A stretch of 64,000 nt of DNA, taken from positions 1 through 64,000 of the forward strand of contig JAKCPI010001754.1 in NCBI GenBank assembly GCA_023213315.1, given 5' to 3'. Source of the DNA: Euborellia annulipes (Eukaryota > Arthropoda > Insecta > Dermaptera > Anisolabididae). Of the stretch, positions 4,935 through 57,787 are shown in pieces. Position numbers and translations under genes: made by a program. Each line of letters starts with the position of its first letter. Positions within the stretch are counted from its first letter, which is position 1. Below the pieces are notes generated by a model, which worked only from the letters and a program-made list of their open reading frames with translations, had not been told where the DNA came from and made no database searches.

Positions 4935-5193
4935 AGTAGAAGGATAATAAAAAGAGAGAGCAGCTAGTTTTTGTTTTCTTTTATTAAACCCTCATTGCTG
5001 ACGTTTCGGTCCTGTACAGGTGAATATTCATCTAATTTATATAAATCTGTACGCATTTTCTTAATGACCATTGTATTGTTCTATATTAATAGCTCTGAGG
5101 ATGGCCCAAAACAGGACCGAAACGTTAGCAATGAGGGGTTTAATAAAAGAAAACAAAAACTAGCTACTCTCTTTTTATTATTATCTTTCTACT
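4935..5193. mobile_element. Foldback element with a hammerhead-like core
   Basis: The arms at 4935-5015 and 5112-5193 are near-perfect inverted repeats. The outer arms carry a purine/pyrimidine tract with ...AACTAGCT, and the inner ends carry the GACGTTTCGGTCCTGT motif. The right arm contains the hammerhead-like core at 5095-5126. There is no coding capacity. Confidence 0.8.
5091..5131 (+). ncRNA. Hammerhead ribozyme-like motif
   Basis: CTGAGGA at 5095-5101 fits the core CUGANGA. Stem II is GGCCC/GGACC with one C.A mismatch at its centre. GAAA is at 5119-5122, followed by CGTT, so the cleavage triplet would be GUU. A 3-bp stem I (GCU 5092-5094 with AGC 5127-5129) closes it. Stem I is weak, so activity is uncertain. 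Confidence 0.55.
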
Positions 5194-5276
5194 ATAGCAA
5201 CAATCAATCAAGTAAACCTTTAAATAATGAAATAGCTCTTAAACTTTTATCCAAATATTTTTTTTACTAGCCGCGC

Positions 5277-5661
5277 CGCCCGCCTTCGGCGGGCTCCGCG
5301 TCTAGCCAGGGGCTTCGCCCCTGGACCCCACCAGCTGGCTCGGGCCGCCTGCGGCGGACCCTCGCCTTTCTTATGAGAAACGGGCTGGCGTCTGAGACGG
5401 GGGCTACGCCCCCTGGACCCCCGCCAGCTGGCTCGGCCGCCTGCGGCGGACCCTCGCCTTTCTTAATTATGAGAAACGGGCTGGCGTCTAGACGGGGGCT
5501 ACGCCCCCTGGACCCCCGCCAGCTGGCTCGGGCCCGCCGCGGCGGACCCTCGCCTTTCTTAATTATGAGAAACGGGCTGGCGTCTAGACAGGGGCTACGC
5601 CCCTGGACCCCATCAGCTGGCTCGGGCCCGCCTGCGGCGGACCCTCGCCTTTTCTTAATTA
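5277..5661. repeat. GC-rich ~95-110 bp tandem repeat, about 4 units
   Basis: The units carry AGCTGGCTCGG, a CGCCTGCGGCGG palindrome, ACCCTCGCCTTTCTT and ATGAGAAACGGGCTGGCG. Each also has a CAGGGGCTTCGCCCCTG-type palindrome whose stem sequence varies while staying paired. The first unit starts with a GCCCGCCTTCGGCGGGC hairpin. The open frame running through it is a consequence of GC-rich codons and is not supported as a gene. Confidence 0.85.
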
Positions 5662-5719
5662 TGAAAAGAAAATTATTATTACTAACAACTAAGTATTCCA
5701 GTCCAGTGCCTGCTTGAGG

Positions 5720-6060
5720 ATTTGTTTACATTCAAAGAATACACAACTGTAAAGAATACTTAAATATTTCTTTATACATTTCCTATGGGAGAAATCGTAA
5801 CTTTAGCAATTAATAACTCAAAAAGTTATAGGAATTTCGGGACCCGAGTATTTTTCCGGGACTCTCCATAACGTCCTTTATAAGACTGCAAATTTCGTTT
5901 CAAAATTCCAACGGGAAGTAGGTCAAACAGAGCGTGACAGACGGACGGACAGACGGACACACCGCAATTATTATATATAGAAGATTATTTTAAAACCAAA
6001 TAAATTATTCCATTGGGCCATATCTCCAATTATTAAATTGGCCAAAATTAAAGGGCTTAT
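5720..6060. other. Non-coding, end of a decayed repeat
   Basis: Contains CAGACGGACGGACAGACGG near 5939-5957 followed by a (TA)n tract. This end-type resembles the CCGTCTGTCTGTCT near 36308. No gene signal is seen. Confidence 0.4.
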
Positions 6061-6066
6061 TGTGTA

Positions 6067-6285
6067 CAGTGAGTCCCATAATTAAGTCCCCACCTGATAG
6101 CTAGATCCTTAAGTATATGGTATAGTAAATGATGTATAGTGAAATAATTAATGACCGAAAAGGTAAAACGTAAAATCTGGTACAGATGATTTTATTTTAC
6201 CTTTTCAAATTTAAAATTATTTCACCATATACCATATACTTAAGGCTCTAGCTATCAGGTGGGGACTTAATTGTGGCGCTTTCTG
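6067..6285. mobile_element. Mariner-type MITE (CAGTGAGTCCC ends), foldback
   Basis: Ends are CAGTGAGTCCCATAATTAAG and, inverted, a diverged CTTAATTGTGGCG...TTCTG, with TA on each side (6065-6066 and 6286-6287). Arms of roughly 100 bp pair around a central loop; both arms include CCCCACCTGATAGCTAGA or its complement. TA target sites and a CAGTG-start are characteristic of Tc1/mariner elements. A relative is at 46015-46214. Confidence 0.7.
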
Positions 6286-6504
6286 TACAATAAACCCAAC
6301 CCCCCCGGTTGAGGCGCCCCCTCACCAAGGGTTGGCCGGCTTTTTTTTACTTTGAATGTAATAAAAAACCAAAAAGGGGGGGGGGGGGGGAAGGAAAAAA
6401 AAAAAAAAAAAAACTAACAACCGCTATGCCGAAGTTCTCCAATGGTCCACAGGTCAAAATTTGGAAATCCCTAGTGTAAGGAATAAAATAAAATAAAAAA
6501 CACT

Positions 6505-6610
6505 GCACTGTTTTAATCGTTGCGGTTAAGTGATGCCAAGCGCGGAGAAAAGCTCGGGTTGGTGACCCTGAGTAAGCAATGTGTGTAACGTCCTCCGGTA
6601 GCCAACAGTA
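6505..6610 (+). repeat. 5S rRNA-derived SINE-like fragment
   Basis: GGTTAAGTGATGCC followed by AAGCGCGG, AAAAGCTCGG and GTTGGTGACCCTGAG follows the order of the 3' half of 5S rRNA, where GTTAAGC, GCGCGG, a TACTTGGAT segment and GGGTGACC occur. It is too diverged and incomplete to be a working 5S gene, and a 5S-headed SINE is the best guess. Confidence 0.4.
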
Positions 6611-6935
6611 TAATTTATTTAAATATTTATATAGGACTAAATAAATTCAACCCCTAAATGGCACCTGGGGCCCTGAAATTCCAAAAAAAAATAAATAAAA
6701 ATATAAGGAGAAAAAATTTTAAAATTAAAATTTTAATCGTTATAAAATAAGTCATTTTTCCGGGGGGGGGGGGGGGGGGTCAATGGGATCTTTCAAACCC
6801 TAGTCTACTCGAAAACATTTTTTTGGATACGGCCTTTATAGATTATCATCCCGAATACTACAATTATAATTTCTATAGTAAAAGTCAAAAGCTTTTTTGT
6901 TCCTCAAATTACTTAGAAATGTTTTACTTTTCTAG

Positions 6936-7271
6936 GATATTACCAGCATCCGGGAGCCGGTCCATATCCATACAACGGTCCACATCCTGGTGCACCCACC
7001 GGACCTTCAGCACCATACGCCACAGGTCCAGCAGCGCCTTACTCTAACGCCCCCGTCAATTCCTACGGGGTACCCTATCCACCTTCTACAAATTACGGTG
7101 CACCTTCTTCAAATTATGGCGCACCTTCTACAAATTACGGCGCACCTTCAGCGAATTACGCCGGAAATTATGGGCCTTCTTCCGCTGCTAATTACGGCCC
7201 TTCAGCTTCCACCAATTATGGCTCATCAGCAGCGGATGATCGGCAACCCTCCGCATCAGAAGAACGACCAC
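6936..7271 (+). CDS. Second exon of the AKG-repeat gene: Pro/Gly/Tyr-rich repeats
   Basis: The acceptor TTTTCTAG ends at 6935, and the donor C^GTAAGAAT begins at 7272. Read in phase 1 it gives YYQHPGAGPYPYNGPHPGAP, then tandem NYGAPS/NYGPSS-type hexapeptides (about seven), and a more charged end, AADDRQPSASEERP. It again ends in phase 1, so at least one further exon is expected to the right; I could not identify it. Low-complexity Tyr/Pro/Gly repeats after a basic AKG domain suggest an extracellular structural protein, but I know no family to assign. The gene is antisense to MCTP and sits in its apparent intron. Confidence 0.6.
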
Positions 7272-7533
7272 GTAAGAATTTATTTATTTATTAATTTTGC
7301 AAAAATTAAAAAAAAAAAAACATGCTAGAAGAAATTAATATATAAGAGATTTATTTACTAACTTTCTCTCTAAGCAAAGAATCAAGATAATTATATTATC
7401 TGCTTTTACTAAATACTGTCAAACAAGTTTTTAAAATAATTTACTTTAAATATTTATTTATTTTGTTTCTACTGGAAATTCAATGAAATTTTATGAGTAA
7501 TTAATTGCAATAAGTAGATAGATGAATGAATAA

Positions 7534-7741
7534 TTAATAATGAAAAGAACAAACCAGCCGAAAACAATTAAAGAAAAAATATTTTCTTTTTCCGCTTTAT
7601 TTGATACAAATTTCGACGTTTCGACCGTTTCTTCCGGTCTTCATCAGGACATGTGCAATGTTTGCACATTGTATTAAATAAAGCTGAAAAGAAGAATATT
7701 TTTTCTTTATTTGCTTACGGCTGCCTTGTCCTTTTTATTAT
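7534..7741. mobile_element. Foldback element with a hammerhead-like core
   Basis: Arms at 7534-7610 and 7670-7741 are inverted repeats, with TTTATTTAATACAA-type inner ends and CAGCCG/CGGCTG near the outside. The loop region carries the minus-strand hammerhead-like core at 7615-7647. Confidence 0.75.
7608..7655 (-). ncRNA. Hammerhead ribozyme-like motif, clean core
   Basis: Read on the minus strand: CTGATGA (7647-7641), A, stem II GACCG (7639-7635), loop GAAGAAA, CGGTC (7627-7623), GAAACGTC (7622-7615). All conserved core positions of a minimal type I hammerhead are present, including a GUC triplet and the self-complementary ACGU that can form stem III in a dimer. Stem I is AUGUC/GAAAU with one mismatch. 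Confidence 0.65.
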
Positions 7742-7837
7742 TAAGAGAATTATTTAACCTATTATTAATTAATTAAACAAGGTATTTTTATTAATATACG
7801 ATCTAGGTACCAATTCGCCCCATAAATAAATTGATTT

Positions 7838-7995
7838 ATGAATTTTAACCAAAATCTTTTAAAGCCAATTTTGAGAAAATGGAAAAAAACTGAAAAAATA
7901 CATCAGTAAAGTACTAGTACTTTTTGGTCGTTTTATTTAAAAACTTATTTTCGCGCCTCAGAAGGGTACCTAACTTCAATATAAAATTTCAATCT
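7838..7995 (+). repeat. R1-family fragment (middle part)
   Basis: Matches the centre of R1: a GAAAAAAACTGAAAAA run, CATCAGTAAAGTACTAGTAC, then a GCCTAACTTCAATATAAAATTTCAA-type segment. Both ends are missing. Confidence 0.75.
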
Positions 7996-8211
7996 CGTTT
8001 CTCGTTTCCTTCATGCTTTATTTTAAATCACAGAGGCTCGGAGCCGGAGAAAAGAAAAAAATTTATGATAAATAAAGATATTATTATTATTATTATTATT
8101 ATTATTTAAATCACAGACATAGAGTTAGACAGCCCTTTTTGCTGCATCCACATTTTTGAACTTAGGGGGTCTCAAAACGTATATTTCCATCAAAATCTCA
8201 GCATTCTTATT

Positions 8212-8345
8212 CGGAGTTTTAGGTCTTAGATATCAAACTATGATCTGGGCTCTTATTTAATCATCATATGATTAGCCTAACTAGATGACGACTCGAAAGT
8301 AATAGTCGGTAAAGTAGCTTATCCGAGGTAGAGCTAGTTATGCTA
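8212..8345 (+). repeat. ~125-bp dispersed repeat
   Basis: Shares AGGTCTTAG, GATCTGGGCT, CATATGATTAGC and GACTCGAAAGT in order with 59120-59245, and inverted with 13130-13260. No coding capacity; class unknown. Confidence 0.6.
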
Positions 8346-8559
8346 ACTGTATCTGAAGAAACCGGAGTAATTTTTTTTTTTTGACGTGACAACGTCTTAC
8401 AAATCATGTGTCTATAGTGGCATGTTAGAGGGGCTTGCACGAAAAAGTTTATTGGCTTGAATAACTCCTCTGTCTTAAGAGGTATAATTATGAGAAATAT
8501 ACGGTTAGAAAGAATGAGTTTTCAGCTAAAGATTGCACCATTTATTTTTTTCCTATCAT

Positions 8560-9440
8560 TTTATTTTACCGCGCTGCGGTAAATTCCTAATTTGAAAGTT
8601 TAAACCCCTGTAGATTCCGAACAACTATTCAGATCAGACCAAATGAGATGTCATTTGGTGCAGAAAGAAAACCTATAATAGAATAAATAAAAAAATCCCG
8701 AGTAATTAACTCCAAAATTGGTTTTTTTCTCGAAAAACCTCATTTTTTAGGCAAAAAAATATCGAAAAATAGCCCTACTTGTGCAACGCATAGCTACTTG
8801 ACCATAAAAGCTACATTAAATCTAAATATAGTTTTAGAAAGAGTGGTCCAATGCCCAGAGGTTATTTTTTCATTTTTTTTTGATATGACGTCATTTTACC
8901 GCATGAGAGCACTCGGCGGGATTTCGTTTTTCGAAATTTTAAACCCCTGTAGATTCCGAACGGCTAATCAGATCAGACTAAATGAGATGTCATTTGGTGC
9001 AGAAAGATAACCTCTAAGAGAATAAATAAAAAAATCCCGAGTAATTAACTCAAAAATTGGTTTTTTTCTCGAAAAACCTCATTTTTTAGGCAAAAAAAAT
9101 ATCGAAAAATAGCCCTACTTGTGCAACGCCTAGCTACTTGACCATAAAAGCTACATTAAATCTAAATATAGTTTTAGAAAGAGTGGTTCAATACCCCCAG
9201 GGCTTTTTTTCTTTTTTTTGATATGAGGTCATTTTTCCGCATGAGAGCGCTCGGCGGGATTTCGTTTTTCGAAATTTTAAACCCCCGTAGATTCCGAACG
9301 GCTAATCAGATCAGACTAAATGAGATGTCATTTAGTGCAGAAAGATAACCTCTAATAGAATAAATAAAAAAATCCAGAGTACTTAACTCCAAAATTAATT
9401 TTTTTTTCGAAAAACCTCATTTTTTAAGCATATGTCGCCC
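8560..9440. repeat. Imperfect tandem repeat, ~338-bp period, about 2.6 copies
   Basis: The block AATAAATAAAAAAATCC(C/A)GAGTA recurs near 8683, 9022 and 9358. Between its copies, TAGCCCTACTTGTGCAACGC and GATCAGACTAAATGAGATG recur in the same order. Copies differ at several percent of positions, so this is older than the array at 1-2352. Confidence 0.85.
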
Positions 9441-9839
9441 ATTAATTGATAAAAGTTTGGCCACACCTGTTATATATTGTTTCAATGAAAATGTTTGAAC
9501 ATGTTTATTTATGAAAACAAACTACTAGTAAAAAAATATAAAAACAATACTTTCTCTCTTTATATTTAAATATAGGTAAGGAAAAAAAAATTTTTTTGAA
9601 ATCAAGCAAAAGACGTTGTCACGTTAAAAAGCCACCGGCTGTGTAGAAGACACAGCTAACACCTAATTTTTTAAACATTCAATATATTCGACAAATATTC
9701 ATTCGATAGATTTCGGATTTGAGAATCTCTATAAAAAAATTGATAACAGCATCTTTGGGCAAGCAACATTTTTTAAATAGGATAGTCAAGGAAGAGAAAG
9801 AATAGAAAACAACATTTTTAATATAATTGTAAATGTTTT

Positions 9840-10512: not shown

Positions 10513-10710
10513 TTTGAGGATGCACAAGATTATATAACTAATTAATGAATTTTGAAGTTTACTAGTATCAAGATTCAGATGAAATGAATGAATTACAATC
10601 AACAAATTTTGGGTATAGGAGACTTTGTAACCAAGGAATTTAATAAAAAACTTTTATGTAATTAATTAATCATATAAGTTTCGGTCGCGAATCACGACCT
10701 CTCCCAAAAC

Positions 10711-10766
10711 AATTAATTGTTCCTGAAGAAGGTCGTTATTTTCGACCGAAACTTCGACGGTTAATT
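10711..10766 (+). ncRNA. Hammerhead ribozyme-like motif with all three helices
   Basis: CTGAAGA at 10723-10729, stem II GGTCG/CGACC (10731-10735 with 10743-10747, loop TTATTTT), GAAA at 10748-10751, then CTTC (triplet UUC). Stem I pairs UC with GA (10721-10722/10756-10757) and, past an internal loop, AATTAA with TTAATT (10711-10716/10761-10766). An internal loop in stem I is the usual place for the contact with loop II in type I hammerheads. Confidence 0.65.
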
Positions 10767-10950
10767 CCTTGGCTGCAAAGTCTTCTATACCCAATTCAAA
10801 GTATACATCGACTTCTTATCACTAGTTAATTTTTTTTTTTTTTTTTATTTTTATTTTTCGAGAAATTTAACCTTGACGACTGGTTTGCGCAAATTACTCA
10901 GATTCGGTCACCATCTGAGACCATTATCAATGTATGTATCTTCATTTTCA

Positions 10951-10990
10951 GGCCTGATGATGGTCACAGATGGTGACCGAAACTGAGAAA
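10951..10990 (+). ncRNA. Hammerhead-like core, decayed cleavage end
   Basis: CTGATGA at 10954-10960, a perfect 6-bp stem II GGTCAC/GTGACC (10962-10967 with 10973-10978), then GAAA at 10979-10982. It continues CTGAG instead of CGUC, so no NUH triplet is in the expected place. Confidence 0.45.
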
Positions 10991-11320
10991 CATGCGGAAA
11001 CTAGTCGTCAAGATTAAATTTCTTGAAAAAAAAAAAAAAAATTATTGTAATTCATTCATTTCATCAGAATCTTGATTTAAGTAAACTTTAAAATTCATTT
11101 AGTAAGTAAATCATCTCTCAACAGAGATTAACTCCAATTACAGAGAGACGGAGGAGACATTGGCAATGTTTGAAAATTTTTCACGGCAAGTGGGATTTGA
11201 ATCCGATTTGTCAAAATACCAACTCAAAATTCGTAATCCGCAGCTTATCCGATTAGAGCCACGAGCTTCCTCTATTAACAATTATCAACTCTATATTAAC
11301 AATGTATAGTAAAATGTGGG

Positions 11321-11420
11321 TCAGTGGCGTAACCAGGGGGGGGCGAGGGGGGCTCGAGCCCCCCCCCCCGCCCCAGGCGCATCGAGCCCTTGGCGCCCCC
11401 CGGAACCGGCATAGGCGCCC
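11321..11420. repeat. Fragment of a G-run hAT-type MITE family
   Basis: CAGTGGCGTAACCAGGGGGG followed by a long C-run and GCGCCCCCCGG. It is like other short elements here with CAGNGGCG ends, but no right end or target duplication can be seen. Confidence 0.45.
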
Positions 11421-14929: not shown

Positions 14930-14980
14930 GCCAACTACTGAAGAAGTCCTTCAGCAAGTGGACGAAACATTGTCAGGGAT
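14930..14980 (+). ncRNA. Hammerhead ribozyme-like motif
   Basis: CTGAAGA at 14938-14944, stem II GTCC/GGAC (14946-14949 with 14960-14963), GAAA at 14964-14967, then CATT (triplet AUU). I cannot find a convincing stem I. Confidence 0.45.
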
Positions 14981-17886: not shown

Positions 17887-19477
17887 TACCGGGTGGGCCA
17901 ATAGTGCGTGAGACGGAAGATTGTGGAGTTTATTAACGGACATTTTTAAAATTTGTTGATCGCACATAATGTGGGGCCGCTAGGGCTACAAATTAAAAAT
18001 ATTTTTGTTCCAATAGCACCTCAATACAGGGTGGTCCATATCAAAGTTATGTTTTTTTAAATGGAACGCCCTGTGTATTGTTAAATATTTGGATTCTACC
18101 GCCAATTTTAGTATGAGTTTATGTCATGCAATGTATTCCAAACCAAACCGTTTAGCACAAATCGGGCTTTAGTGAAAAAACTGCTGTCTGGAAAAAATTG
18201 AATATTTTGCGAACCATAAAACTTAGGGGACTGTTCTTTTGTGAGGTTACTAACCATGAAATGTGCTAATGTAGGCCAGATGGGGAACCCGGAATTATTC
18301 TTATGTTGGGAGATATGGCCATGCCAATTTGGAAAAATTCAATCATGGATAACTTCATTTTTTCAAATGGAACATGCCTACTTTTTTTATGCCATGGGAC
18401 GTGAAATTTAATTCTCCTTTCAGCTGATATAAGGTTGTTTATATCTATCTTTGGTAGTTTTCTTTTTATTCCAAAATATCTGATAACGAAAGAAAAAAAA
18501 AATTTTATTATAGAGGAATTAATTGAAAAAAAAATCCAAACGCAAAACAAAATCGTAATAAATGGACAAATTATGCTAAATATTCGAAAATGTCTTTAAA
18601 TTTCCCTTTAAAATCATTTATTTGAACTCCCCCCAAAGGAGTCCCGCTTGCTCAAATTCGGGTTATGATTTGTCAACAAGATGGCGCACCTCCTAACCTG
18701 AATATAACCATAATTTATTTTTCGAGAAGTTCAAATAAATAGATTTTAAAGGAAATTAAAAGACATTTTCGAATATTTAGCATATTTTTTCTATTTATTA
18801 CAATTTTAGTTTTGCGTTTGGATTTTTTTAAAATTATTTTGTCTGTAATAAGAAATTTTTTTTTTTTCGTTATCAGATATTTTGGAATAAAAGAAAACTA
18901 CCAAAGGAAGATATAGACGACCTTATATCAGCTATAAAAAAATTAAATTTCACGTCCCATGGCATATAAAAAAGTAGCATGATCCATTTGAAAAATGATG
19001 AAGTTATCCATGATTGAAATTTCCAAATTGGCATTGGCCATATCTCCCAACACTAGAATAATTCCGGATTACCCATCTGGCCTACATTAGGACATTTCAT
19101 GATTAATAACATCCCCAAAAGAGACAGTCCCCTAAGTTTATGGTTCGCGAGATATTCAATTTATTCCAGACAGCAATTTTTTCACTAAAGACCCGATTTT
19201 ACGGCTAAACGGTTTGGTTTGGAAATACATTGCATGACATAAACTCATACTAAAATTAGCCGTAGAATCCAAATATGCAATAATATTACAGGGCGTTCTA
19301 TTTTAAAAAACATAACTTTTTGATATGGATTACCCTATAATACGTGAAGTGTATTGGAAGAAAAATATTTTTTAATTTGTAGCCCTAAAGGGCCCCACAT
19401 TATGGTGCGATCAACAAATTTTAAAAATGTCCGTTAATAAGCCCACAATCTTCCGTCCCACTAAAGCCCACCCGGTA
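17887..19477. mobile_element. 1.6-kb inverted-repeat (foldback) transposon
   Basis: Left arm ~17887-18600 and right arm ~18730-19477 are inverted repeats. The ends read TACCGGGTGGGC and GCCCACCCGGTA with TA outside both. Arms share, inverted, GATTGTGG, GTCCGTTAATAA, TTTTAAAATTTGTTGATCGC and CCATATCAAAGTTATG. The ~130-bp centre (about 18600-18730) carries GGAGTCCCGCTTGCTCAAAT and AAGATGGCGCACC. No transposase frame is present. Confidence 0.85.
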
Positions 19478-24004: not shown

Positions 24005-25340
24005 ATGTAGTTCATTATGACCCTTTTAATGTATTAAAACCAAAAATTTAAAATTGGGTTAAAAGGAAAATTTTTAAATTTTAATTAAAATTTTTTTTTA
24101 AATTAAAAAAATTTTTTTTTATTTAAAAAAAATTAAAAAAAAAAAAAACCCTAAGGGGGATATAGGGTAAGAGAAAGTAAAAATTAATGAGTTAGAAAAG
24201 ATTCGGATAAATTTATAAAGATCTTAGTTCGGGTAACTCGTGGTCGCCTACTCATTAGATGTGATTGATAATTTCAAAAAAATAAAATACATTATCGTGA
24301 ATCTTAGAAATTTTATTCGCAATTAAGACGATCAAAAGATAATCCCTAAACGCCACTTGAAATCAATCACAACCCACAAAAATCCTTTGAATACTAAACA
24401 TTTCTTGATGGATTTATAGCAGTGTAAAAACAGACTGGGAATGTTTCTTTAATAAATATTTAAAAATCATAAAATTCCTTCTGTTTAATTATATTAGCCA
24501 TCTATTTATACCTTTTAGTCTGTTTTAATTTTGAAATTTTGATTTATCAATTCCCCCAGGTATTTTTTTTTTTTACTTCTAATTCAAGAGTTGCTAAAAA
24601 TAATCCAAGTAATAATAAAGGGAATGAATGCAAATCAATTCGATTTGCTAAAGCCAGTTTGTTGATTAAAACCCAAGCTGAGAGAGGTTTTTATCCCAAA
24701 GGCAAGCAATTTGACATCTTGTTTCACATTAATTAATTTACAGACACCCAAGCAAAGGTTCATTATTCTTTAATAATTTCCGGTCGACCTCCTCTTGCGA
24801 GGGAAAATTTTCGAAGGGGTTAATTGAGTTTTTAAAGAGAAAGAGTAAAATGAGAAAAACTTGGGAGTGGAGTCGTTTAAAAAATCCGATATCAAATCTA
24901 AACCAAATATTTTACAAAAAAAAAAAAATTGTCAATAAATATTAAATAGATAAAAAATATCATAATTCAAATAAAAATGAATGAATGATGATAAAAAATA
25001 CACTTTCGTTTGTTTTAAAATAGATTATTTTGCAGATAAATAGAAATAAAAACTTATTATCGTTTTTGCACAACTTTAAAGACGGATGAGTAGAAATAGA
25101 AGTTAACTAGGTAGAGGCTTTGTTTGAAAAAAGCTGGAATCAACGCTCAAATAGCTTAATAAAACTAATTATAGTTATATTAAGAAATATTTTTACTAAA
25201 TTTAAAGTAAAAATATTTCTTAGGCCTAATTGATATATTTTATTAATTTAAAAAATTTGTTTGTTTTGACTTATCATATGGACCGGTTATTTTGAAAGTG
25301 GTGTAAGTCCATTTTCTATTCGAGAAAATGAAAGGTTAAA
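24005..25340. other. Intron sequence, nothing recognised
   Basis: A/T homopolymer-rich. Includes a small piece of the CGGGTAACTCGTGGTCGCC repeat at about 24230. The open frame at 24539-24736 has no splice borders or recognisable content. Confidence 0.45.
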
Positions 25341-25351
25341 GTATCTGTTTA

Positions 25352-26010
25352 TTAAAAATCTGGTGTGACTGGCGGACAGCACACAACTTTCTCTTACCTT
25401 CGGTAATCGAAAGTTGTGTACTGTGCTTGTCACACCAGATTTTTTGTGTCGACATATATTTAGTTTCCGACAGTACGGAACATTTGAATGCAGATGTAAA
25501 ATTTATAAGTATGGGAAAATATTTATATTTTGTTACCATGGCAACCATTTCTCCTATCTTCCCTATGAAGTACAAGAGTAAAGTGGTCTTCAGAAGATTT
25601 CAATTGCAAAATGAGAATATACATTTTAAAGAGAATCTAAAACATAATTGATTTTTGAATTTTAATCAAAATCGTTAGAGTGAATTTTGAGAAAATCGAA
25701 ATAAAGTGAAAAAGTGCATCAGTAAAGTATTAGTACTCTTTGGCCGATTTTGATTAAAAGCTTATTTTTCCGGTCCCGGGGGGTGTTTAACTTAAATATA
25801 AAATTTCAACCTCCTAGCTCAATTCCTTCATGCTTAAAATTGAAACACACACACACGCACAGACAGACCATGTCGCGAAAACCACTTTTTTGGATTCAGG
25901 GGACCTCAAAACGTGAAGATCCATCAAAATCTCGACATCGAATTTTTGACATGAATCCAATACTTTCTCTCTGTATATATATTACATATATACATAGGTA
26001 AGAGAAAGTA
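25352..26010 (+). mobile_element. R1-family element, full length
   Basis: The 5' hairpin at 25356-25441 has inverted arms AATCTGGTGTGAC/GTCACACCAGATT, and a nested ACAACTTTC...GAAAGTTGT with TTACCTTCGGTAA at the tip. The 3' end has TACTTTCTCTCTGTATATAT and then GGTAAGAGAAAGTA at about 25997-26010. An (AC)n stretch lies near 25846-25862. Confidence 0.88.
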
Positions 26011-30956: not shown

Positions 30957-31009
30957 AAAGAAATTAGACAAAAATTTAATTAATCTTTATCCAATTTTTT
31001 ATTTTTAAT

Positions 31010-31050
31010 TGCCGACGTTTCGAACGCAAGTCGCGCCCTTCCTCAAGAAA
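31010..31050 (-). ncRNA. Hammerhead-like motif, one core base changed
   Basis: Minus strand: TTGAGGA (first core base C changed to U), stem II GGGCGC (31038-31033) with GCGTTC (31027-31022) using two G.U pairs, then GAAACGTC (31021-31014) with a GUC triplet. Confidence 0.5.
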
Positions 31051-31222
31051 ATTGGTAGTCAATAAAATACAGATGGGCGTATTTTTATTTTAAATTAATA
31101 ATATAAAAACACAATTCATGATCAAATATATACAGTCAAAAACAATGCATCACACACCCATGAATTGTGTTTTTATATTGTTAATAAAAAAAAAATACGC
31201 CCAACTGTATTTTATTGATTAC

Positions 31223-31271
31223 CGATTGTCCTGAGGAAGGGTTAAACTTGCGTCCGAAACGGCGGCAATCG
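31223..31271 (+). ncRNA. Hammerhead-like motif with 8-bp stem I
   Basis: CTGAGGA at 31231-31237, a weakened stem II (GGG with UCC around TTAAACTTGCG), GAAA at 31256-31259, then CGGC. Stem I CGATTGTC (31223-31230) pairs over all 8 positions with GGCAATCG (31264-31271), allowing one G.U pair. The triplet position reads GGC instead of NUH, so this copy is probably inactive. Confidence 0.5.
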
Positions 31272-31369
31272 AAATAAAAAAATTGTATAAGATTAATTAA
31301 ATTTTTGTCTGATTTCTTTACTCATAGAATGTATTTATCTTTTTTTATTCATAAAGATAAATAATATTT

Positions 31370-32976: not shown

Positions 32977-32985
32977 TTAAATCAC

Positions 32986-33360
32986 CTTTTGAACACGATC
33001 ACTCCTTTCTTTAAATTTATGCCCAAGACGATCCAACAAACCGACAGAATCCTCAATTGGAGGACATTCAGCAAGTGTAATTGAACGCAAGGTTAACGGC
33101 GGCGGTTTATTCGAAACAATCCTTTCTTGGGGATCTTCAAGCGACGAGGACATGCTAATCAGCGTTGTTTGTACAGGGGGTGGTGGAGGTGGCGGTGGTG
33201 GAGCTTGTGGAGGTGACCAGGAGCCTGACGTGATGTCTAATGATGCCGTTTCTAGAAGACGAGTCAATTTGGCTTTAACTCGATGAACTCGGGATACTGA
33301 GGAGGAAGATCCACCAGTACCACCGCCGCCGCCGCCATCGTGTGATGTTGGTTGTTCCAT
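32986..33360 (-). CDS. Mctp: Probable alternative first coding exon of MCTP
   Basis: An ATG at 33360 (GCGAATGG context) opens 125 codons ending in a AAG^GTGATT donor at 32986, in phase 0. That is the phase of the C2B exon acceptor at 14615, the only recognised minus-strand exon downstream. The protein part has a glycine run (about residues 9-14) and serines, then VSRVHRVKAKLTRLLETASL, a run of nine or more prolines (about 52-62) and a C-terminal part DSVGLLDRLGHKFKERSDRV. I do not recognise a domain; the ends look helical and basic. If spliced to 14615 it gives an MCTP form without C2A. It could also belong to another minus-strand gene. Codon use and local CpG content are clearly exon-like. 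Confidence 0.6.
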
Positions 33361-34260: not shown

Positions 34261-34397
34261 ATGGAATAGAGCAGGGGTGACCAACCCGCGGTCCACCTTG
34301 CGACCCGCGGGGCTCATCACACTTTTACAAAATATATTTATTTTATAATCAGCCAAAGGAAAATAAAGAAAAATATTTTTTTTTGCTTTATTGAACA

Positions 34398-34450
34398 ACA
34401 ATGTCGATGTTTCGGTCGATTCCTCCGACCTTCATCAGGACATGTGTTTT
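34398..34450 (-). ncRNA. Hammerhead ribozyme-like motif with stems I and II intact
   Basis: Minus strand: CTGATGA (34438-34432), stem II GGTCG (34430-34426) with CGACC (34418-34414), GAAACATC (34413-34406; triplet AUC). Stem I AUGUC/GACAU is five perfect pairs (34443-34439 with 34405-34401). The ACGU of stem III is changed to ACAU. Confidence 0.6.
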
Positions 34451-34587
34451 GTTTGCCTTGAGCTTAGAGATGCGCTTTTGACAGCTCCTGACATAGGTGC
34501 GAACATTCGTTAGTTGACCTGACTTCTGGTTCAAGAATGATCATCATTCAGCCAAAAGCACCTCTTAGCTCGAGGCAAATAAAACAC

Positions 34588-34632
34588 CTGTCATGATGAA
34601 GGTCGGAAGAATCGGCTGAAACGTCGATATTG
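34588..34632 (+). ncRNA. Hammerhead-like motif, one core base changed
   Basis: ATGATGA at 34593-34599 (first C of the core is A). Stem II GGTCG/CGGCT pairs using G.U, then GAAACGTC at 34618-34625. This is the inverted partner of 34398-34450. Confidence 0.5.
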
Positions 34633-35078
34633 TTGTTCAATAAAGCAAAAAAAATTATTTTTTTACTTTGGTTTGGGTAGCTTTATATCTTCATTATAAA
34701 TTATAGCAACATTCAGCCAATATTCCTAGCAATATATTTATTTTAATTTTTTTACCCTAAAGAATGTCTATAGTGGGTCTAAAACTAATATGGAGATACA
34801 AGTGGGAAAGCCCGCCTTCGCCCCCTGGACCCCCTTGCTCGCCTTTTTAAATTTCCCTCTCTGACTTAAAGTATTTAAATTTCCTTCACTAACTCCACTT
34901 CCCCTGTCTCTGGCCAATCAGCGAGAGAGAGTGGTAAACAGGAACAAAAAACGCAAGTCAGTGGCTAGCGGTTTATATTATATATCATGATATAATTTTT
35001 ATATGGGGCCCGCGGAGTTATGGTGCATTTTCAAAGTTGCCCGCAAGATCATTTGGGTTGGTCACCCCTGGAATAGAG

Positions 35079-36800: not shown

Positions 36801-37670
36801 GGACATAGCCCCCTTTTTTGAGCCTCACCTTTTGGGGATTTGGGATACCAGATTCAAAAAGTTGCCTTCCCCCTTTTGTTTTGAGCTGGATACGTCCATG
36901 ATACACAATATTTTGCAATGCAAGCTTCTCTACTCTCTAGCCTCCCCTTTTATAGGACCTATTGATATTTTACCACCCTTCGAAATAAATATTTAATCAG
37001 AGCAGTAAGAATAAACTCAAGGCAATATGGTGTAAGAACACAGGGTAAAAGAAAATAAAAGAATAGCAAGGTGAGGAATGGCTCAAACCCAGAGTACGCC
37101 CTAAATGTAAGCCTATATAGAGAGTATTTCAAAGTACTATAGAGTCATCTACAATATCAATAATTAGAGAATATTTAAAAACAAATCATTTCTAAGACTA
37201 TACTTATGGATCCTGCAATTTCACTCTAACAATTTCAAACAGAAAATGATTCTTTCATCAGAATTTTTAAAAATGACTAAACATATTTGTTTATCAATTC
37301 AAGAAGAAACATATAATATTCGAGAAATAATTAAAGGAAATATTTTCAGAATATATTCAAGGGTTATCCAAAGACGAGTAAGGCCATTGAATGACCAAGA
37401 ATAAATAAAACAGTAGCCCAATTAGTCTACTTTTCGTGACTGTAAATACAAAGGTCATAGATAAAAGTTAATTGCTAATAGAATTTGTTTTAAATTGGAT
37501 ATAGGGCTATTAGCCCTACACAAAAGTATCTAATTTATAGTCTTTCCATATTCACTATGGAAGAAATCGTTACTTCAACAATTAATAATTACAGAAAGCT
37601 ACAAGAATATTAGACGAATTAGGGGTCTAGTTGAGAAAACTAGACAGTCTCGAACAGTATTTGCCTTTGG
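36801..37670. other. Non-coding, nothing recognised
   Basis: AT-rich with no exon or family repeat that I can support. Confidence 0.4.
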
Positions 37671-37745: not shown

Positions 37746-37970
37746 TTTAAAGTGAAACTTTATTTTGATCGTCACAAATTTTTTCGTTTCTCTATCAGCA
37801 TGTCGCGTTACAAGCCGTGACGTCAAGGGCCGTGACGCTACAAGTTAGGACGTCACAAGCCGAGACAACAAAAATAAGAAAGTTGAAATTTCATATATAT
37901 GACGAATTATAAAAAAATAATTGTGAAATTTAATTATTGAATTTTAAAATGATAAAATATAATTTTTAAA

Positions 37971-38677
37971 AAAATCTGGTGTGACTGGCGCACAGCACAC
38001 AACTTTCTCTTACCTTCGGTAATCGAAAGTTGTGTACTGTGCTTGTCACACCAGATTTTTTGTGTCTACATATATTTAGTTCCCGACAGTACGGAACATA
38101 TGAATTCAGATGTAAAATTTATAAGTATGAGAAAATATTTATATTTTGTTACTATGGCAACCATTTCTCCTATCTTCCCTATGAAATACAAGAGTAAAGT
38201 GGTCTTCAGAAGATTTCAATTGCAAAATGAGAATATACATTTTAAAGAGCATCTGAAAAATAATTGATTTTTGAATTTTAAAAAAAATCGTTGGAGCAAA
38301 TTTTGAGAAAATCGAAAAAAACTGAAAAAGTGCATCAGTAAAGTACTAGTAATCTTTGGCCGATTTTGATTAAAAGCTTATTTTTCCGGTCCCGGGGGGT
38401 GTTTAACTTAAATATAAAATTTCAACCTCATAGCTCAATTCCTTCATGCTTAAAATTGAACACACACACACACACCCACACACCCACACACACACCCACA
38501 CACCCACACACCCACACACCCACACACAGACAGACCATGTCGCGAAAACCACTTTTTTGGATTCAGGGGACCTCAAAACGTGAAGATCCATCAAAATCTC
38601 GACATCGAATTTTTGACATGAATCCAATACTTTCTCTCTCTATATATATTACATATATACATAGGTAAGAGAAAGTA
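37971..38677 (+). mobile_element. R1-family element, full length
   Basis: 5' hairpin at 37973-38058, the CAGTAAAGTACTAGTA block at about 38335, a long (CACACC)n microsatellite at 38459-38527, and the 3' hairpin TACTTTCTC...GAGAAAGTA ending at 38677. A shared ATAATTT(TT)AAAA on both sides hints at a target duplication of about 12 bp. Confidence 0.88.
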
Positions 38678-46214: not shown

Positions 46215-46578
46215 TACAAGTACTCTTTGCGCGATTTTGTTCAAAAGCTTCGTGTCAAATGCCCGGGGGATGCCTAACTTAAATATAAAATTTCAACCTC
46301 CTAGCTCTTTTCGCTCTTGAGATATTTTGTTCACAGACACACAGAGAGACACACAGACAGACAGACCAAGTCACGAATGCACTTTTTTGGATTCAGGGAA
46401 CCTCAAAACGTGTATATCCGTCAAACCTCGACATCGAATTTTTGACATGAATCCAATACTTTCTCTCTATATATAATAATAAGAGAAAGTAAAAAGGTAC
46501 TGTAACGAAAAATTCTTAGCAAATGAAGAAAATTTCTTTACAATTGAATAGTAGAACGTGGCTGTAGATGATATGTTT

Positions 46579-46757
46579 AATAGGAAAGAGGATGCAGCCA
46601 AATAATTGAGCCTCTATTCAGTAATGAACACTCTTTATTGGGACGTTTCGGCTGGGATTAATGCTGAAGATGGCAGGGTTGATCCCAGCCGAAACGTCCA
46701 AATAGTGTTCATTACTGAATAGAGGCTCAATTATTTGGCTGCATCCTCTTTCCTATT
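46579..46757. mobile_element. Foldback element with a hammerhead-like core, near-perfect arms
   Basis: Arms 46579-46658 and 46682-46757 pair over almost all positions (AATAGGAAAGAGGATGCAGC and its complement at the ends; ATTGAGCCTCTATTCAGTAA within). The right half of the same family, with the same outer sequence, is at 57731-57842 without the left arm. Confidence 0.88.
46660..46702 (+). ncRNA. Hammerhead ribozyme-like motif with GUC triplet
   Basis: CTGAAGA at 46664-46670, stem II GGC-A-GGG / CCC-A-GCC around TTGAT (46672-46690), GAAACGTC at 46691-46698. The core is complete, but the 5' strand of stem I is part of the foldback arm and pairs weakly with the 3' side (UG/CA only). Confidence 0.55.
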
Positions 46758-46894
46758 CAACAAATTTCTTTACAAACCATTTCCTACTAACTCAAGAGTA
46801 TCTTTTTATGGGCAAACAATCTGTTAACTAAAACATGTAGAATGATTGAGCATGTGAATAAAAAGAAGCAGAGTGTTAATAAAATGGAAATTAC

Positions 46895-48850: not shown

Positions 48851-48853
48851 CAC

Positions 48854-50272: not shown

Positions 50273-50299
50273 CTAAAAAAAAAAAAAAAAAAAAAAAAA

Positions 50300-51080: not shown

Positions 51081-51090
51081 GCGAAGTGAC

Positions 51091-52620: not shown

Positions 52621-52814
52621 CGGGCCCCCCCCATTGGACCGACAAAAATTCAAAAGTTTTATTTAATATTTTAAAACTAAACAAAAAATTATAAATTTGC
52701 CAGAATAGATAGCTAAAAACGCAGATTTTAGTGCCTAATTTTCAAAAATTTTTCCAAGCCCCCTAGACCTCCGGAAGTAGTCTGTCAAGGTCTGGCCTCA
52801 ATAAATCATGGTAA

Positions 52815-54575
52815 CCCTAGGTATGATTACACTGTGCTACAAAATGAAACTTTTTTCTGGCCCCGAGAAAATTCCTTCAGATTCTTAAGTAAAATTACCT
52901 CCTGAATCCAAATATGACCTTCGTTTACCCCCAGCACGTACCGTTTTCGGGGGGTAGCCCCCTACTTAGTTCCACCCCTTTTCGTTAATTATAGGGCCAC
53001 GAAAAAAATTTGGAGGGATGACGCCTTAACATTTCTTCAGAAGGTCTAGAGAAGTGAAAATAAATAAATAAAAGTTAAAAAACATTAACATTTGGATCTA
53101 AGGAGGGGATGCGGGGGAGGATTTTGTCCCTTAAAATGCAAAAAATCATTAAATATCTGGTGTGACTGGCGCACAGCACACAACTTTCTCTTACCTTCGG
53201 TAATCGAAAGTTGTGTTCTGTGCTTGTCACACCAGATTTTTTGTGTCGACATATATTTAGTTCCCGACAGTACGGAACATATGAATTCAAGATGTAAAAT
53301 TTATAAGTATGGGAAAATATTTATATTTTGTTGCCATGGCAACCATTTCTCCTATCTTCCCTATGAAATACAGGAGCAAAGTGATCTTCAGAAGATTTCA
53401 ATCGCAAAATGAGAATATACCTTTTAAAGAGCATCTAAAAAATAATTGATTTTTGAATTTAAAAAAAAATCGTTGGAGCAAATTTTGAGAAAATCGAAAA
53501 AAAAAAATGAAAAAGTGCATCAGTAAAGTACTAGTACTCTTTGGCCAATTTTGTTCAAAAGCTTATTTTCCCGGTCCCGGGGGGTGTTTAACTTAAATAT
53601 AAAATTTCAACCTCATAGCTCAATTCCTTCATGCTTAAAATTGAACACACACACACACACCCACCCACCCACCCACCCACACACACACAGACAGACCATG
53701 TCGCGAAAACCACTTTTTTGGGACCTCAAAACGTGAAGATCCATCAAAATCTCGACATCTAATTTTTGACATGAATCCAATACTTTCTCTCTATATATAT
53801 ATTACATATATACATAGGTAAGAGAAAGTAAAAATTAACAATTTTCTGATTTTTCACAATTTTTTCACTGATTTTCTACATATTCAGGCGGACAGACCCA
53901 CCTCACCCTTCCTTAAACATCCCTTAACTAAAAAAAAATATATAGGATAAAGCAGGTGGGGTGTGAGCGATTCCGAAGCCCTTGCAAGAAGAATTTTTTT
54001 CAAACTTTGACAAGAAATAATTTCAACCCCTTTAGATAAAATATGGCAATATTGAAGGACTTAGAAGAATCCGTAAATATAACTTTAAATTTGTGGAGAT
54101 CAGCCCAAAAAAATGAAAGTAATAGCTGCTGCATATTTGCCAATTTGACCAACTGAGCTGTGAATCTTCCATCTTCTTGCAAGCGCTTCGGAATCATTTG
54201 AAAATGATTTTAATGATTATTTTTAATGATTTTTTTGCATTTTAAGGGACAAAATCCTCCCCCGCATCCTCCCCTTAGATTCAAATGTTAATGTTTTTTA
54301 ACTTTTATTTATTTATTTTCACTTCTCTAGACCTTCTGAAGAAATGTTAGGGCTAAAATATTCCTTTTCATCCCTCCAAATTTTTTTCGTGGCCCTATAA
54401 TTAACGAAAAGGGGTGGAAATAAGTAGAGGGCTCCCCCCCCCCGAAAACGGTACGTGGTGAAGGAAAACGGAGGTCATATTTGGATTCAGGAGATCATTT
54501 GACTTAAGAATCTGAAGGAATTTTCTGGGGGCTTTTTTTCTTGTAGCACAGTGTTATTAATCATGATATTTCAGT
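52815..54575. mobile_element. 1.76-kb foldback with ~330-bp arms and an R1 element in the loop
   Basis: Left arm 52815-53146 and right arm 54225-54575 are inverted. Shared words include CACTGTGCTAC, AAATTCCTTCAGATTCTTAA, GAATCCAAATATGACCT, CCTTTTCGTTAATTATAGGG and GGAGGATTTTGTCCCTTAAA. The loop contains R1 copy 53153-53830 and about 390 bp with no other match. Confidence 0.85.
53153..53830 (+). mobile_element. R1-family element, full length
   Basis: Hairpin ATCTGGTGTGAC...GTCACACCAGAT at 53155-53238, the CATCAGTAAAGTACTAGTAC block at about 53518, (CACC)n and (AC)n at 53645-53690, and the 3' end GGTAAGAGAAAGTA at 53817-53830. Confidence 0.88.
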
Positions 54576-54794
54576 AAACTTGGTAATTTTTTTACAATTG
54601 ATCAATTTTTGACTTGCTCATGTTTTCGTGTATGTTAACGGTTACAGAAATATAGCTCTACATTGTTTAAGGGTTAAAAGGTTGCTATTAAAACTTTTTG
54701 AAGATGGCTACTAAGCGAGAGTGACGTATCATTTTGATATTATTCAAATTAGACAATACAATTGTTTAAATGATTTTCGGACAATTTTCTTTTT

Positions 54795-54955
54795 TTTAAT
54801 TTCATTTAAGATCTTTTTCGGCATCGAAGGCCATTTATTTCAATTGGATTGGTAGCCGATCTAATTGAAATAAATTGTCGCATGAGACGGGATGCGAACC
54901 CGCGGTACAAATGGCCAGCACGCTACCTATTACACCAAGGCCCGAGGGCATCTTC
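54795..54955 (-). repeat. tRNA-derived SINE1
   Basis: Minus strand: CCTTGGTGTAATAGGTAGCG, GGTTCGCATCCCGTCTCATG, AATTGAAATAAATGGCCTTC and GATGCCGAAAAAGATCTTAA. Confidence 0.78.
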
Positions 54956-55159
54956 GGTACTCAATGACGAGCGAAATATGTTCTGACACGAAGTTTCAAA
55001 ATTGTACCGTTTTGTTTTAGCATATTATAAAATTTGTAAACGAATACAGTTCTTTATCAATGTTAATTTGAATCCGGAACTAAATAAATATCACCCCTAT
55101 TACCCACTACTCTTCTGGCGTGCGCCACTGCCTCTTCACCTTCTCTTCATAAATTTTGG

Positions 55160-55300
55160 ACCATTGGCTAACAATCCCGGTGAAATAAATAGAGACGGGG
55201 TTTAAATGGCTTTCGCTGCCGAAAAAAGCTTAAATGAATAAAAAAAAAAAAAAAAAAAAATTTGGGCCCCCCCCTTGACCAAATCCTGGGACCGCCACTG
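55160..55300. repeat. SINE1 tail joined to a G/C-run fragment
   Basis: GAAATAAATAGAGACGGGGT and GCTGCCGAAAAAAGCTTAAA with a long A-run to 55260, then GGGCCCCCCCCTTGACCAAA and GGACCGCCACTG. Confidence 0.55.
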
Positions 55301-55572
55301 AGTACTTTTCTGATGTACTTTTTCAATTCTTTTTTTTTTTTCCAAAATTCGTTAGAACGATTTTGATTAAATTTCACCAATCAATTATTTTTTAGATCCT
55401 TTTTAAAATATATATTTTCATTTTGCCCTTGAAATCTTTTGAAGCACATTTTACTCTTGTACTTCATAGGAAAGATAGTAGAAACAGAATATATAATTAT
55501 TTTTCTATGTTTATAGATTTTACATCTTGATATTTTAATATATTGGCCGAAACTAAACATATGCCGACATTT
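55298..55572 (-). repeat. R1-family fragment
   Basis: GTACTTTTCTGATGTACTTT through TATATTTTCATTTTGCCCTT to CATCTTGATATTTTAATATA, in R1 minus order. Both ends are missing. Confidence 0.65.
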
Positions 55573-55589
55573 TTATACACAATTTTATA

Positions 55590-55730
55590 TTGGCCTTGAG
55601 CCATGGCTCAGTGGTAGAGTTTCTGCCTTTTGTGCTAGGAGTCAAGGATTCGTATCTAGTCTAATGCGACAAACATGAGATGAGGTCTAAATGGCCTCCG
55701 ATGTCCAAAAATACCATAAACAAATAATAA
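55590..55730 (+). repeat. tRNA-derived SINE with second head type
   Basis: CATGGCTCAGTGGTAGAGTT (A-box type), then GTCAAGGATTCGTATC, TGAGGTCTAAATGGCCTCCG and ATGTCCAAAAATACC with an A-rich tail. Confidence 0.7.
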
Positions 55731-55734
55731 AAAA

Positions 55735-56300
55735 GAATGTTGCCGGGGGGCAACGGAGAGGAGCAACGAACCCCAAATCGTTCCCGTGAAGCCAAGCGAT
55801 CAGCAATCAGCGTGTGGACCGGACCGTACCCCGGTAGCCATCGATACTATGTGCCATCTATTGCAATAGTATTGAGATTATAGTCAGGTAATTAGGCAGC
55901 TCAAATGGCATACGTAACAAAAAAAAAAGTTTAAAAAGGGTCGTTCGATCTATTGCCTGCTTTGAAAAAGCTTTAGTGTGGGCTGCCTAACTACCGGGCT
56001 TTAGCCTCAATACTATTGCAATAGATATGTTAAATTTAAATTCAAATCCCTAAATGACCTCAGTAGCCGAAAAGGATTTTTTCAAAAAAAAAAATATATT
56101 TTTTAATTATCTCCCTCTCGGCTACTAAAGCCATATAAGAATTTAATATATTAATGATATTTTTATTATTTATTTCATCGATGGGATACCAGAGGACGTT
56201 CCACACGGCGATTCTTTGTGATCACCAAGCTGAGTTTTCGCCATTGGCATTGCTCAACTCCAACGATTGTGGTGACTATTGCTCAAATCCGGTGCCAGGC
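55735..56300. repeat. Composite: foldback and possible 5S-like pieces
   Basis: TATTGCAATAGTATTGAGAT at about 55858 and ATCTCAATACTATTGCAATA-type sequence at about 56005 are inverted, as are GGTAATTAGGCAGC and GCTGCCTAACTACC. The GC-rich blocks at 55740-55850 and 56195-56300 contain GAAGCCAAGCGATC and GTGATCACCAAGC, faintly like 5S rRNA. Origin unclear. Confidence 0.4.
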
Positions 56301-56439
56301 TCGCCGGCAAAAAAATTTTACATTTTGAATTGAACATTTTTTGAATTTGTACATTTTAATGTATTGGTAGAAACTAAATATATGTCGACATAGGAAATAT
56401 GGTGTGACAAACACAGAACACAACTTTCTATAGTCGAAG

Positions 56440-57630
56440 AGACTTTTTTTTTGATAGAATATTAATATTTTAATGAGAGAAAGATAGTAAATGCCAGAGA
56501 TTATAATTAATCCGTTTATTATTTTTTATATCGACGTTAAACAAACAAATAAAAAGATATCTTTATATTAAATCGGGCGAGGAGCCTTGCGCCTATCTCG
56601 AGGCCATCTCGCACTTTTATTATTAATAACGATTCCTGTGTGATTTTATAATAATTTCATTTTGTTACAAATAAAAATAAGCTTTTATGTTCGCTTGAAT
56701 GGCGTAGTCCCATGCTGATTTATATTTGAATTATGAATTACGATTCACTTGCTTTTACTAATTTCTTTAAAAAATTTGTGCCGACTCAAAAAAAATTAAA
56801 ATTTAATTTTAACATTATGTAAAGCTTAATTATTTATTCCTTTTATTAATCCATTTAAGAAATTCATTTTTATTAAAATGAATATTCATTTAAAGAATAA
56901 AGAAGACGATCCATAAACAAATATTTAACTTGAGTAACTTATTAAAAAAGATGAAGGTGAGTTCTTGATAAGATCTCTCTCGGGGGCATTCTTGCATTAA
57001 AGCTCGTCAATTTTTTATATCCTATAGAGACAGCCTTTTATCCTTACTCTTGTCTAAATTGATATCATCTTTGGTCAGATAAAATATTAATTTAAAAGAA
57101 TTTTTGATGTAGAAGTTATCCAAAAGGAAAAAAAAAGTTAAAAGAAAGTATTTTCATTTTCGTTATTATTTAATTAACTATTACGTTCACAATTGAACTG
57201 TTTTAGAACATCCGGGTCAGCGGGGAATTTTTATTAAGTATCATTTGAATCTTAACATTTTATTAAGAAATTACTTCCTAAGTTCAAAGGAAATGTGGCA
57301 TCTAAAAAACAAGTAATTTTATCTAAAATCTTTAACGAACGATCTAGGTGGATGTAAAGATACTGATAAGGAATCAAAAACAGCAGAAGCAGACGAAAAA
57401 GTCTCAGATGGTTAAAAGATTATTTGAAAATCCCATTTTCAGAAACATAAGATAAAATTAATTTAATATTTAAATAGCCAATGTGTTTCGCACAAAAACA
57501 TAGCCAAGAAGATGCAAAAAATAGAAAAATATAGAGCTAAAATGTTAAATGCTGTTTTAAGGAGAGAGTTACAAAATTAGTTAGATACAAAATTTGAAAA
57601 TTAGCTATCAAAATTGTTATTGAAACTTGA
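56440..57630. other. Non-coding, nothing recognised
   Basis: AT-rich. No exon or family repeat except a decayed R1 piece ending at about 56435. Confidence 0.45.
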
Positions 57631-57635
57631 ATAGT

Positions 57636-57728
57636 ATTTACATTTTATATACATAAATAGAGTTGTCATTTTGTTAATACAAGTTATTTGCAAACGACAA
57701 CTCTATTTATGTATATAAAATGTAAATA
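57636..57728. repeat. Short foldback, arms ~35 bp
   Basis: CATTTTATATACATAAATAG and AGAGTTGTC pair with GACAACTCT and CTATTTATGTATATAAAATG around a ~20-nt centre. It abuts the hammerhead-like motif at 57731. Confidence 0.8.
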
Positions 57729-57730
57729 TG

Positions 57731-57787
57731 CTCTTTGAAGGCTGAAGATGCCAGGGTTGATCCCGGCCGAAACGTTCCAATAAAGAG
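57731..57787 (+). ncRNA. Hammerhead ribozyme-like motif, most complete copy
   Basis: CTGAAGA at 57742-57748. Stem II GCCAGGG/CCCGGCC (57750-57756 with 57762-57768, loop TTGAT) has two mismatches. GAAACGTT is at 57769-57776 (triplet GUU). Stem I pairs GG/CC next to the core (57740-57741 with 57777-57778), then after a GAA/AAT internal loop six further pairs CTCTTT/AAAGAG (57731-57736 with 57782-57787). All three elements of a minimal type I hammerhead are present; stem III is the self-complementary ACGU, so it would act best as a dimer. Confidence 0.7.

Follow-up and report, generated by a model that had tools for sequence, protein, structure and literature searches.

Hammerhead-like ribozyme cores in probable remnants of Penelope-like elements in a 64-kb stretch of the Euborellia annulipes genome

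The first 64,000 nucleotides of contig JAKCPI010001754.1 (assembly GCA_023213315.1) of Euborellia annulipes, here called the window, carry a dispersed family of motifs that have the appearance of genuine, though decayed, minimal type I hammerhead ribozymes. Fourteen full-length copies group into nine insertions (A to I), which are most likely old, decayed and 5'-truncated Penelope-like insertions of several subfamilies, reduced to pseudo-long terminal repeats (pseudo-LTRs) without coding sequence in this window. Seven of them (A, B, C, D, F, G and H) are foldbacks, and two (E and I) have a single ribozyme. A preliminary description of this DNA had proposed hammerheads with a diverged stem II, located mostly in foldbacks and linked to Penelope-like elements, and the analysis supports each of these points. 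The same description regarded it as unusual to find the ribozymes in short inverted foldbacks away from any reverse transcriptase, while this is the already published anatomy of Penelope-like pseudo-LTRs (PMC3846280, PMC8969392; what is taken here from sources given by PMC number refers to the available excerpts of these papers). The loci are a known kind of element, already explained in kind, and do not represent a novel class.

Hammerhead cores

A recognisable hammerhead-like core was found at all eleven positions listed in the preliminary description, from 5095 (plus strand) to 57742 (plus strand). The consensus proposed for them was partly too generous: GAAAC is literally present at all eleven sites, CUGANGA at nine and GAAA(C)GUH at only six (5095, 7647, 31046, 34593, 46664 and 57742). 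The two sites that deviate from CUGANGA read TTGAGGA (31046, minus strand) and ATGATGA (34593, plus strand), and the U ahead of the cleavage position is missing at 10954 (GAAACTGA) and 31231 (GAAACGGC).

The window was scanned for an exact core, in which CUGANGA and GAAA (or GAAAC) enclose a stem II with four or more contiguous pairs, and the result was compared with 200 dinucleotide shuffles. Six sites were found, against a shuffle mean of 0.22 when GAAA was required and 0.03 when GAAAC was required. One of 600 letter-permuted control motifs also reached six sites, and these belong to one repeat that hardly varies (CATGAAG-GAATTGAGCTA...) and shows no variation in its stems. Since six sites stand against 0.03-0.22 expected, and the sole control motif that equalled them is one nearly unchanged repeat, the core sequences are not due to chance.

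Three more full-length relatives are located in the opposite arms of foldbacks (4992-5039, 10667-10715 and 10890-10938, all on the minus strand), and together with the eleven listed sites they form the set of 14 copies used below. A set of 15 additionally includes H_L, a 3' half copy in the left arm of insertion H with its GAAA at 46649 (minus strand).

Pairing of the stems

The earlier statement that stem II stays largely paired through compensatory change was confirmed by alignment of the copies and a covariation test. Pairing was seen in 85.3% of stem II cells over the 14 copies and in 89.7% over a set of eight copies, one per insertion, from which H was omitted as a close relative of I. 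Nine cells in the larger set and seven in the smaller one were changed on both sides, and none of 500 shuffles reached either number. The pairing percentage was likewise reached by 0/500 shuffles in both sets, and in the alignment of the 14 copies slid versions of the stem paired at 13-53%. The number of covarying pairs taken alone (three in both sets) was reached by 30/500 and 40/500 shuffles, respectively. For stem I the signal was weaker: among the 14 copies, 60% of cells were paired (reached by 9/500 shuffles) and the number of covarying pairs was reached by 436/500, while in the set of eight the paired fraction was reached by 13/500, the covarying pairs by 229/500 and the covariation score by 0/500. 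Individual copies differ in this stem, which is strong in F_R (8/8 positions) and poor in E (2/8). The ribozyme fold is thus shown by covariation for stem II and weakly supported for stem I.

Where ACGU is present, stem III comprises an A-U and a C-G pair with zero loop, and the next base is C or U. This word, proposed earlier as a means of pairing in dimers, occurs in 8 of the 15 copies, including H_L, and is absent from the other seven; the proposed contact was not seen by eye in the predicted homodimers. Judging by the letters, dimer pairing through ACGU is possible in about half of the copies. In single-strand folding, the foldbacks form long hairpins with a minimum free energy of -81 to -181 kcal/mol (seven folds, C being represented by 10527-10800 only), which are predicted to hide the ribozyme; therefore, cleavage in the present copies would need to precede the pairing of the second arm. 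The predicted folds neither support nor exclude action as a dimer.

State of the copies

In four of the 14 copies all core letters are present, stem II is unbroken over 4 bp or more and the cleavage site is of the UH form. These are B_L (7607..7655, minus strand; 5-bp stem II, ACGU-C), C_R (10715..10763, plus strand; 5-bp stem II, ACUU-C), the only copy of insertion E, whose ends are undefined (14930..14979, plus strand; 4-bp stem II, ACAU-U, poor stem I), and G_L (34398..34446, minus strand; 6-bp stem II, ACAU-C, 5-bp stem I). Three others keep the core and the cleavage site and have one or two mismatched positions in stem II: A_R (5087..5134, plus strand; one mismatch, ACGU-U), H_R (46656..46706, plus strand; one A-A mismatch, ACGU-C) and I_R (57734..57784, plus strand; two mismatches, ACGU-U).

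The remaining seven copies are broken. Letters of CUGANGA were lost in five of them, namely A_L (4992..5039, minus strand), which retains GAAACGUC, C_L (10667..10715, minus strand), where the core is lost, D_L (10890..10938, minus strand; TTGATAA and GAATC), F_L (31006..31054, minus strand; C3 to U, ACGU-C) and G_R (34585..34633, plus strand; C3 to A, ACGU-C). The U ahead of the cleavage position was lost in D_R (10946..10994, plus strand), which retains the core and a 6-bp stem II without the UH cleavage site, and in F_R (31223..31271, plus strand), which retains the core and has lost U16.1; D_L has both defects.

Five foldbacks carry a ribozyme in each arm (A, 4992-5134; C, 10667-10763; D, 10890-10994; F, 31006-31271; G, 34398-34633), and every one of them keeps CUGANGA in exactly one arm. 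This pattern could be explained by chance plus the choice of sites by intact core.

Architecture of the insertions

In all seven foldbacks the two copies are arranged head-to-head, so that the 5' ends meet and the 3' side of the ribozyme points outward. Insertion A (4898..5192) has a left-arm extension of approximately 38 nt, and H (46544..46761) has one of 31 nt, also confined to the left arm (46544-46574; both lengths counted by hand); the left arm of H contains only the 3' half of the ribozyme. A longer and less defined one-arm tail is present in G (34346..34730), where the right arm exceeds the left. The right arm of insertion C (10527..11116), which has the palindromic junction AACAATTAATTGTT, is split by the nested foldback D (10843..11041), whose outer end is A-rich on both arms. 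Foldback F occupies 30971..31306. Foldback B (7534..7744) has a ribozyme in the left arm only, and its right arm picks up just 3' of the cleavage position. Insertion I (57626..57844, plus strand, about 219 bp) consists of its own palindromic 5' end, the ribozyme and a 3' part as in H. Junction palindromes were recognised by eye in B, C and I. Where the ends are defined, the insertions measure 218-385 bp; H and I share the whole of the 3' part, and a related 3' part is common to B and G.

The right arm of B (7640-7680) has no ribozyme, and the point where it restarts is an ACAT word of the kind that flanks stem I too, which gives the impression of a skipped ribozyme hairpin. A start of B exactly at the ribozyme cleavage site, as a record of cleavage, was considered and is unproven; by eye, a slip between the two ACAT words flanking stem I is equally possible.

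End repeats were examined for eight insertions (A to D and F to I) by comparison with 1500 random placements in the window. Direct repeats of 11-15 nt flank four of the eight: A (4886-4897 and 5193-5204, 12 nt, TATAGCAACAAT), G (34331-34345 and 34731-34745, 15 nt, AATATATTTATTTTA), H (46530-46543 and 46762-46775, 14 nt, AAATTTCTTTACAA) and I (57615-57625 and 57845-57855, 11 nt, TGTTATTGAAA). Repeats of at least 11 nt were found in 2.7% of random placements and those of at least 12 nt in 1.9%. Two sequence signals near the ribozymes also speak for the Penelope-like reading: AATAAA lies within 50 nt of GAAA in 10/15 copies and 7/9 insertions (chance would give about 0.14 per copy over 45 nt, the copies being related and not independent), and GGCTG lies within 100 nt on the 3' side in 6/15 copies and 5/9 insertions (0.045 expected per copy).

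Possible origin of the foldbacks

In a Penelope-like element each pseudo-LTR would bear one minimal type I hammerhead, and by analogy with published relatives, a transcript of an active element running over tandem pseudo-LTRs would hold more than one ribozyme. Two of these might pair via ACGU, which would complete stem III and allow the RNA to be cleaved, as proposed from the same relatives. The RNA would then be copied by target-primed reverse transcription, often halting early. Finally, a palindrome close to the 5' end may allow self-priming or template switching and so give rise to a second copy in the opposite orientation and thus to a head-to-head foldback; we infer this step because of the junction palindromes in B, C and I and the published relatives. 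Nine insertions of several subfamilies within 64 kb make a dense record of truncation points relative to the ribozyme, and a whole-genome set would let one test directly whether the position of 5' ends and inverted junctions in new copies is determined by cleavage sites or by stem I hairpins.

Coding and covariance-model searches

Neither a [YF][VIAMLCSG]DD nor a GIY-YIG-like pattern is present in the six frames of the window, and the 20 open reading frames (ORFs) scanned, out of 72 with at least 75 residues, had no Pfam match above the curated cut-off; three weak matches below it (E 0.006 to 0.09) were to unrelated families. The earlier statement that no reverse transcriptase lies nearby is therefore not contradicted.

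A search with Rfam, suggested in the preliminary description as a check, returned no hammerhead at the gathering score, at E up to 10 in the window, or in 281 bases around G, the runs being made without a known hammerhead as a positive control. In the terms of that description, this outcome would speak against the hammerheads. Rfam and other standard hammerhead models expect a longer stem III. The copies described here have a stem III of at most two pairs with zero loop, unlike the standard models, and because of this the silence of Rfam is not taken as a refutation. A covariance model was also made from the 14 copies; that it finds every one of them again follows from its construction and, being circular, gives no independent support. 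Its next match (37221-37269, minus strand; 18.2 bits, E 0.059) lacks a GU cleavage site, shows no AATAAA in the printed stretch and was not counted.

A narrow motif pattern had no matches in viral contigs. A wider one had six matches in genome contigs, where about six are expected by chance according to our own estimate (257 billion bases, both strands, equal base frequencies); none of the six has AATAAA in the 45 nt downstream, and Rfam is silent on them at E up to 0.1. They are not all called chance, because one of them, in an intergenic stretch of a Paenibacillus zanthoxyli contig (L002:2451-2522, between an ORF end at 2434 and the next start at 2671), forms by eye a three-stem hammerhead. 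It consists of stem I CCUGC/GCGGG, CUGAUGA, stem II GGCCGG/CCGGCC, GAAA, stem III with one bulge, and GUC; in its predicted minimum-energy fold stem II is present and the remainder is paired otherwise. This stretch is also unreported by Rfam, which suggests that such silence says little.

Weighing of the explanations

Several observations weigh against an origin from Penelope-like elements. Penelope coding sequence was not found in the window by the motif patterns and in the 20 of 72 ORFs scanned, so that the assignment rests on anatomy, and Rfam gives no hammerhead there even at E up to 10. Insertions C and D have less of the 3' part in common with the others. The end repeats of B, C, D and F are just 6-7 nt long (6-9 nt with wider flanks), that of E is 10 nt against a 95% point of 11 in 300 random placements with wider flanks, and the 11 nt of I do not exceed the 95% point under the same wider flanks. 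The duplications seen here also exceed the 8-10 nt of PMC3846280. The insertion boundaries were set after a first look at the sequence, and in the case of I the repeat itself served to place them; because of this, the end repeats in four insertions are suggestive evidence of retrotransposition.

One alternative is a separate non-autonomous family, similar to retrozymes or short interspersed nuclear elements, made up of short palindromic units that use the Penelope machinery. The small size of the insertions (218-385 bp where the ends are defined) and a window in which no coding motif was found would agree with it, and animal retrozymes are known to bear type I hammerheads in short repeats (PMC7229834). 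However, stem II, the spacer and the cut point of the second copy vary between the insertions, as independent truncations would give, and retrozymes are reported, in the excerpts of the same paper, as tandem repeats bearing canonical hammerheads, unlike the foldbacks and the zero-loop stem III seen here, which makes this family an unlikely source. It seems just as doubtful that the head-to-head foldbacks with their ribozymes propagate in their own right, as a palindromic parasite of Penelope-like elements that consists of RNA only, with one sense hammerhead per transcription side and the core kept in one arm only, since in D and F the core-keeping arm has lost its cleavage site and neither arm could cleave. 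Foldback or miniature inverted-repeat DNA transposons, whose arms would be terminal inverted repeats and whose hammerhead resemblance would be incidental to the hairpin, might be suspected in a window where inverted repeats are common (46 pairs of 40 nt or more, separated by under 3 kb). The arms, however, show retroelement-like AATAAA, A-rich stretches and uneven ends, E and I carry a ribozyme without a second ribozyme-bearing arm, and a plain inverted repeat would leave the conservation of CUGANGA and GAAAC with a covarying stem II unexplained; an origin of this kind is very improbable.

It could finally be argued that the motifs are not hammerheads at all but chance matches plus one repeat family, given that Rfam is silent even at E up to 10, that 7 of the 14 copies are broken and that one of the 600 permuted motifs also reached six sites. 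Against this stand the 0.03-0.22 sites found in shuffles where the window has six, the nature of that control motif as one nearly unchanged repeat, and the several different stem II sequences that stay paired; besides, minimal type I hammerheads lacking helix III have already been published (PMC7761336). We regard this explanation as extremely improbable.

Comparison with known elements

The anatomy of the loci fits the published descriptions of Penelope-like elements. In these, an inverted pseudo-LTR, palindromic junctions, 5' truncation, solo pseudo-LTRs and, in several copies, a duplication of 8-10 bp have been described, as well as a 31-bp tail on one inverted pseudo-LTR copy (PMC3846280); 5' truncation, inverted pseudo-LTRs and short 3' extensions are attributed to the Penelope order as a whole (PMC8969392). 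The inverted pseudo-LTRs of Penelope elements of Adineta vaga (PMC3846280) resemble the insertions described here in their head-to-head copies, palindromic junctions and copies without coding sequence and, more tentatively, in direct repeats that suggest target-site duplication and in an extension confined to one arm (31 nt in H). They differ in the length of the repeats, which here are 11-15 nt and flank four of the eight tested insertions, and the word 'hammerhead' does not occur in that paper.

Minimal type I hammerheads that lack helix III have been reported at scattered places in non-coding DNA (PMC7761336), including those in Penelope pseudo-LTRs (PMC7761336, PMC6155905), and the role of the hammerhead in Penelope-like elements was called still a mystery (PMC7761336). 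One Penelope hammerhead cleaved only when the protein of the element was added, and cleavage was not needed for insertion in vitro (PMC11167929), which cautions against assuming that the copies described here cleave alone. Animal retrozymes (PMC7229834) are similar in having type I hammerheads in short non-coding repeats, but theirs are tandem, have typical helix sizes and are expressed as RNAs of approximately 170-400 nt, whereas the repeats in the window are inverted and have a zero-loop stem III. A literature search on hammerhead ribozymes combined with foldbacks, made with few terms and partial journal coverage, gave no title concerning such elements.

The motifs share CUGANGA, stem II, GAAAC, a reduced loopless stem III, ACGU in 8 of 15 copies and a position within short repeats of an apparently eukaryotic genome with the minimal hammerheads of Penelope-like elements; the latter were reportedly described by Cervera and de la Pena in 2014 and by Lunse, Weinberg and Breaker in 2017. 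The differences are that no Penelope reverse transcriptase was found in the window and that half of the copies of these putative ribozymes are broken.

Other repeats and reading frames

A recurring repeat with a shared reading frame (..IWCDWRTAHNFLLPSVIESCVLCLSHQIFCV..) is located at 25340-25648, 37956-38264, 53089-53409 and 61879-62157; the three of its frames that were scanned, at 25340, 53089 and 61879, had no Pfam match. Long inverted repeats with larger spacers (18076-19285 and 52860-54532) contain no hammerhead copy among those found and are probably other mobile elements. The protein of the ORF at 32980-33360 (minus strand) matched itself only, and that of the ORF at 4336-4641 (plus strand) has six relatives in public data with 57-80% identity and no informative names. 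The repeats and the sparse coding point to a eukaryotic origin of the window. Tandem repeats include three blocks of the same consensus at 375-2069, spaced about 679 bp apart and each containing a 145-bp tandem repeat, and a repeat at 8594-9430 with a 338-bp unit in 2.5 copies that are 93% alike.

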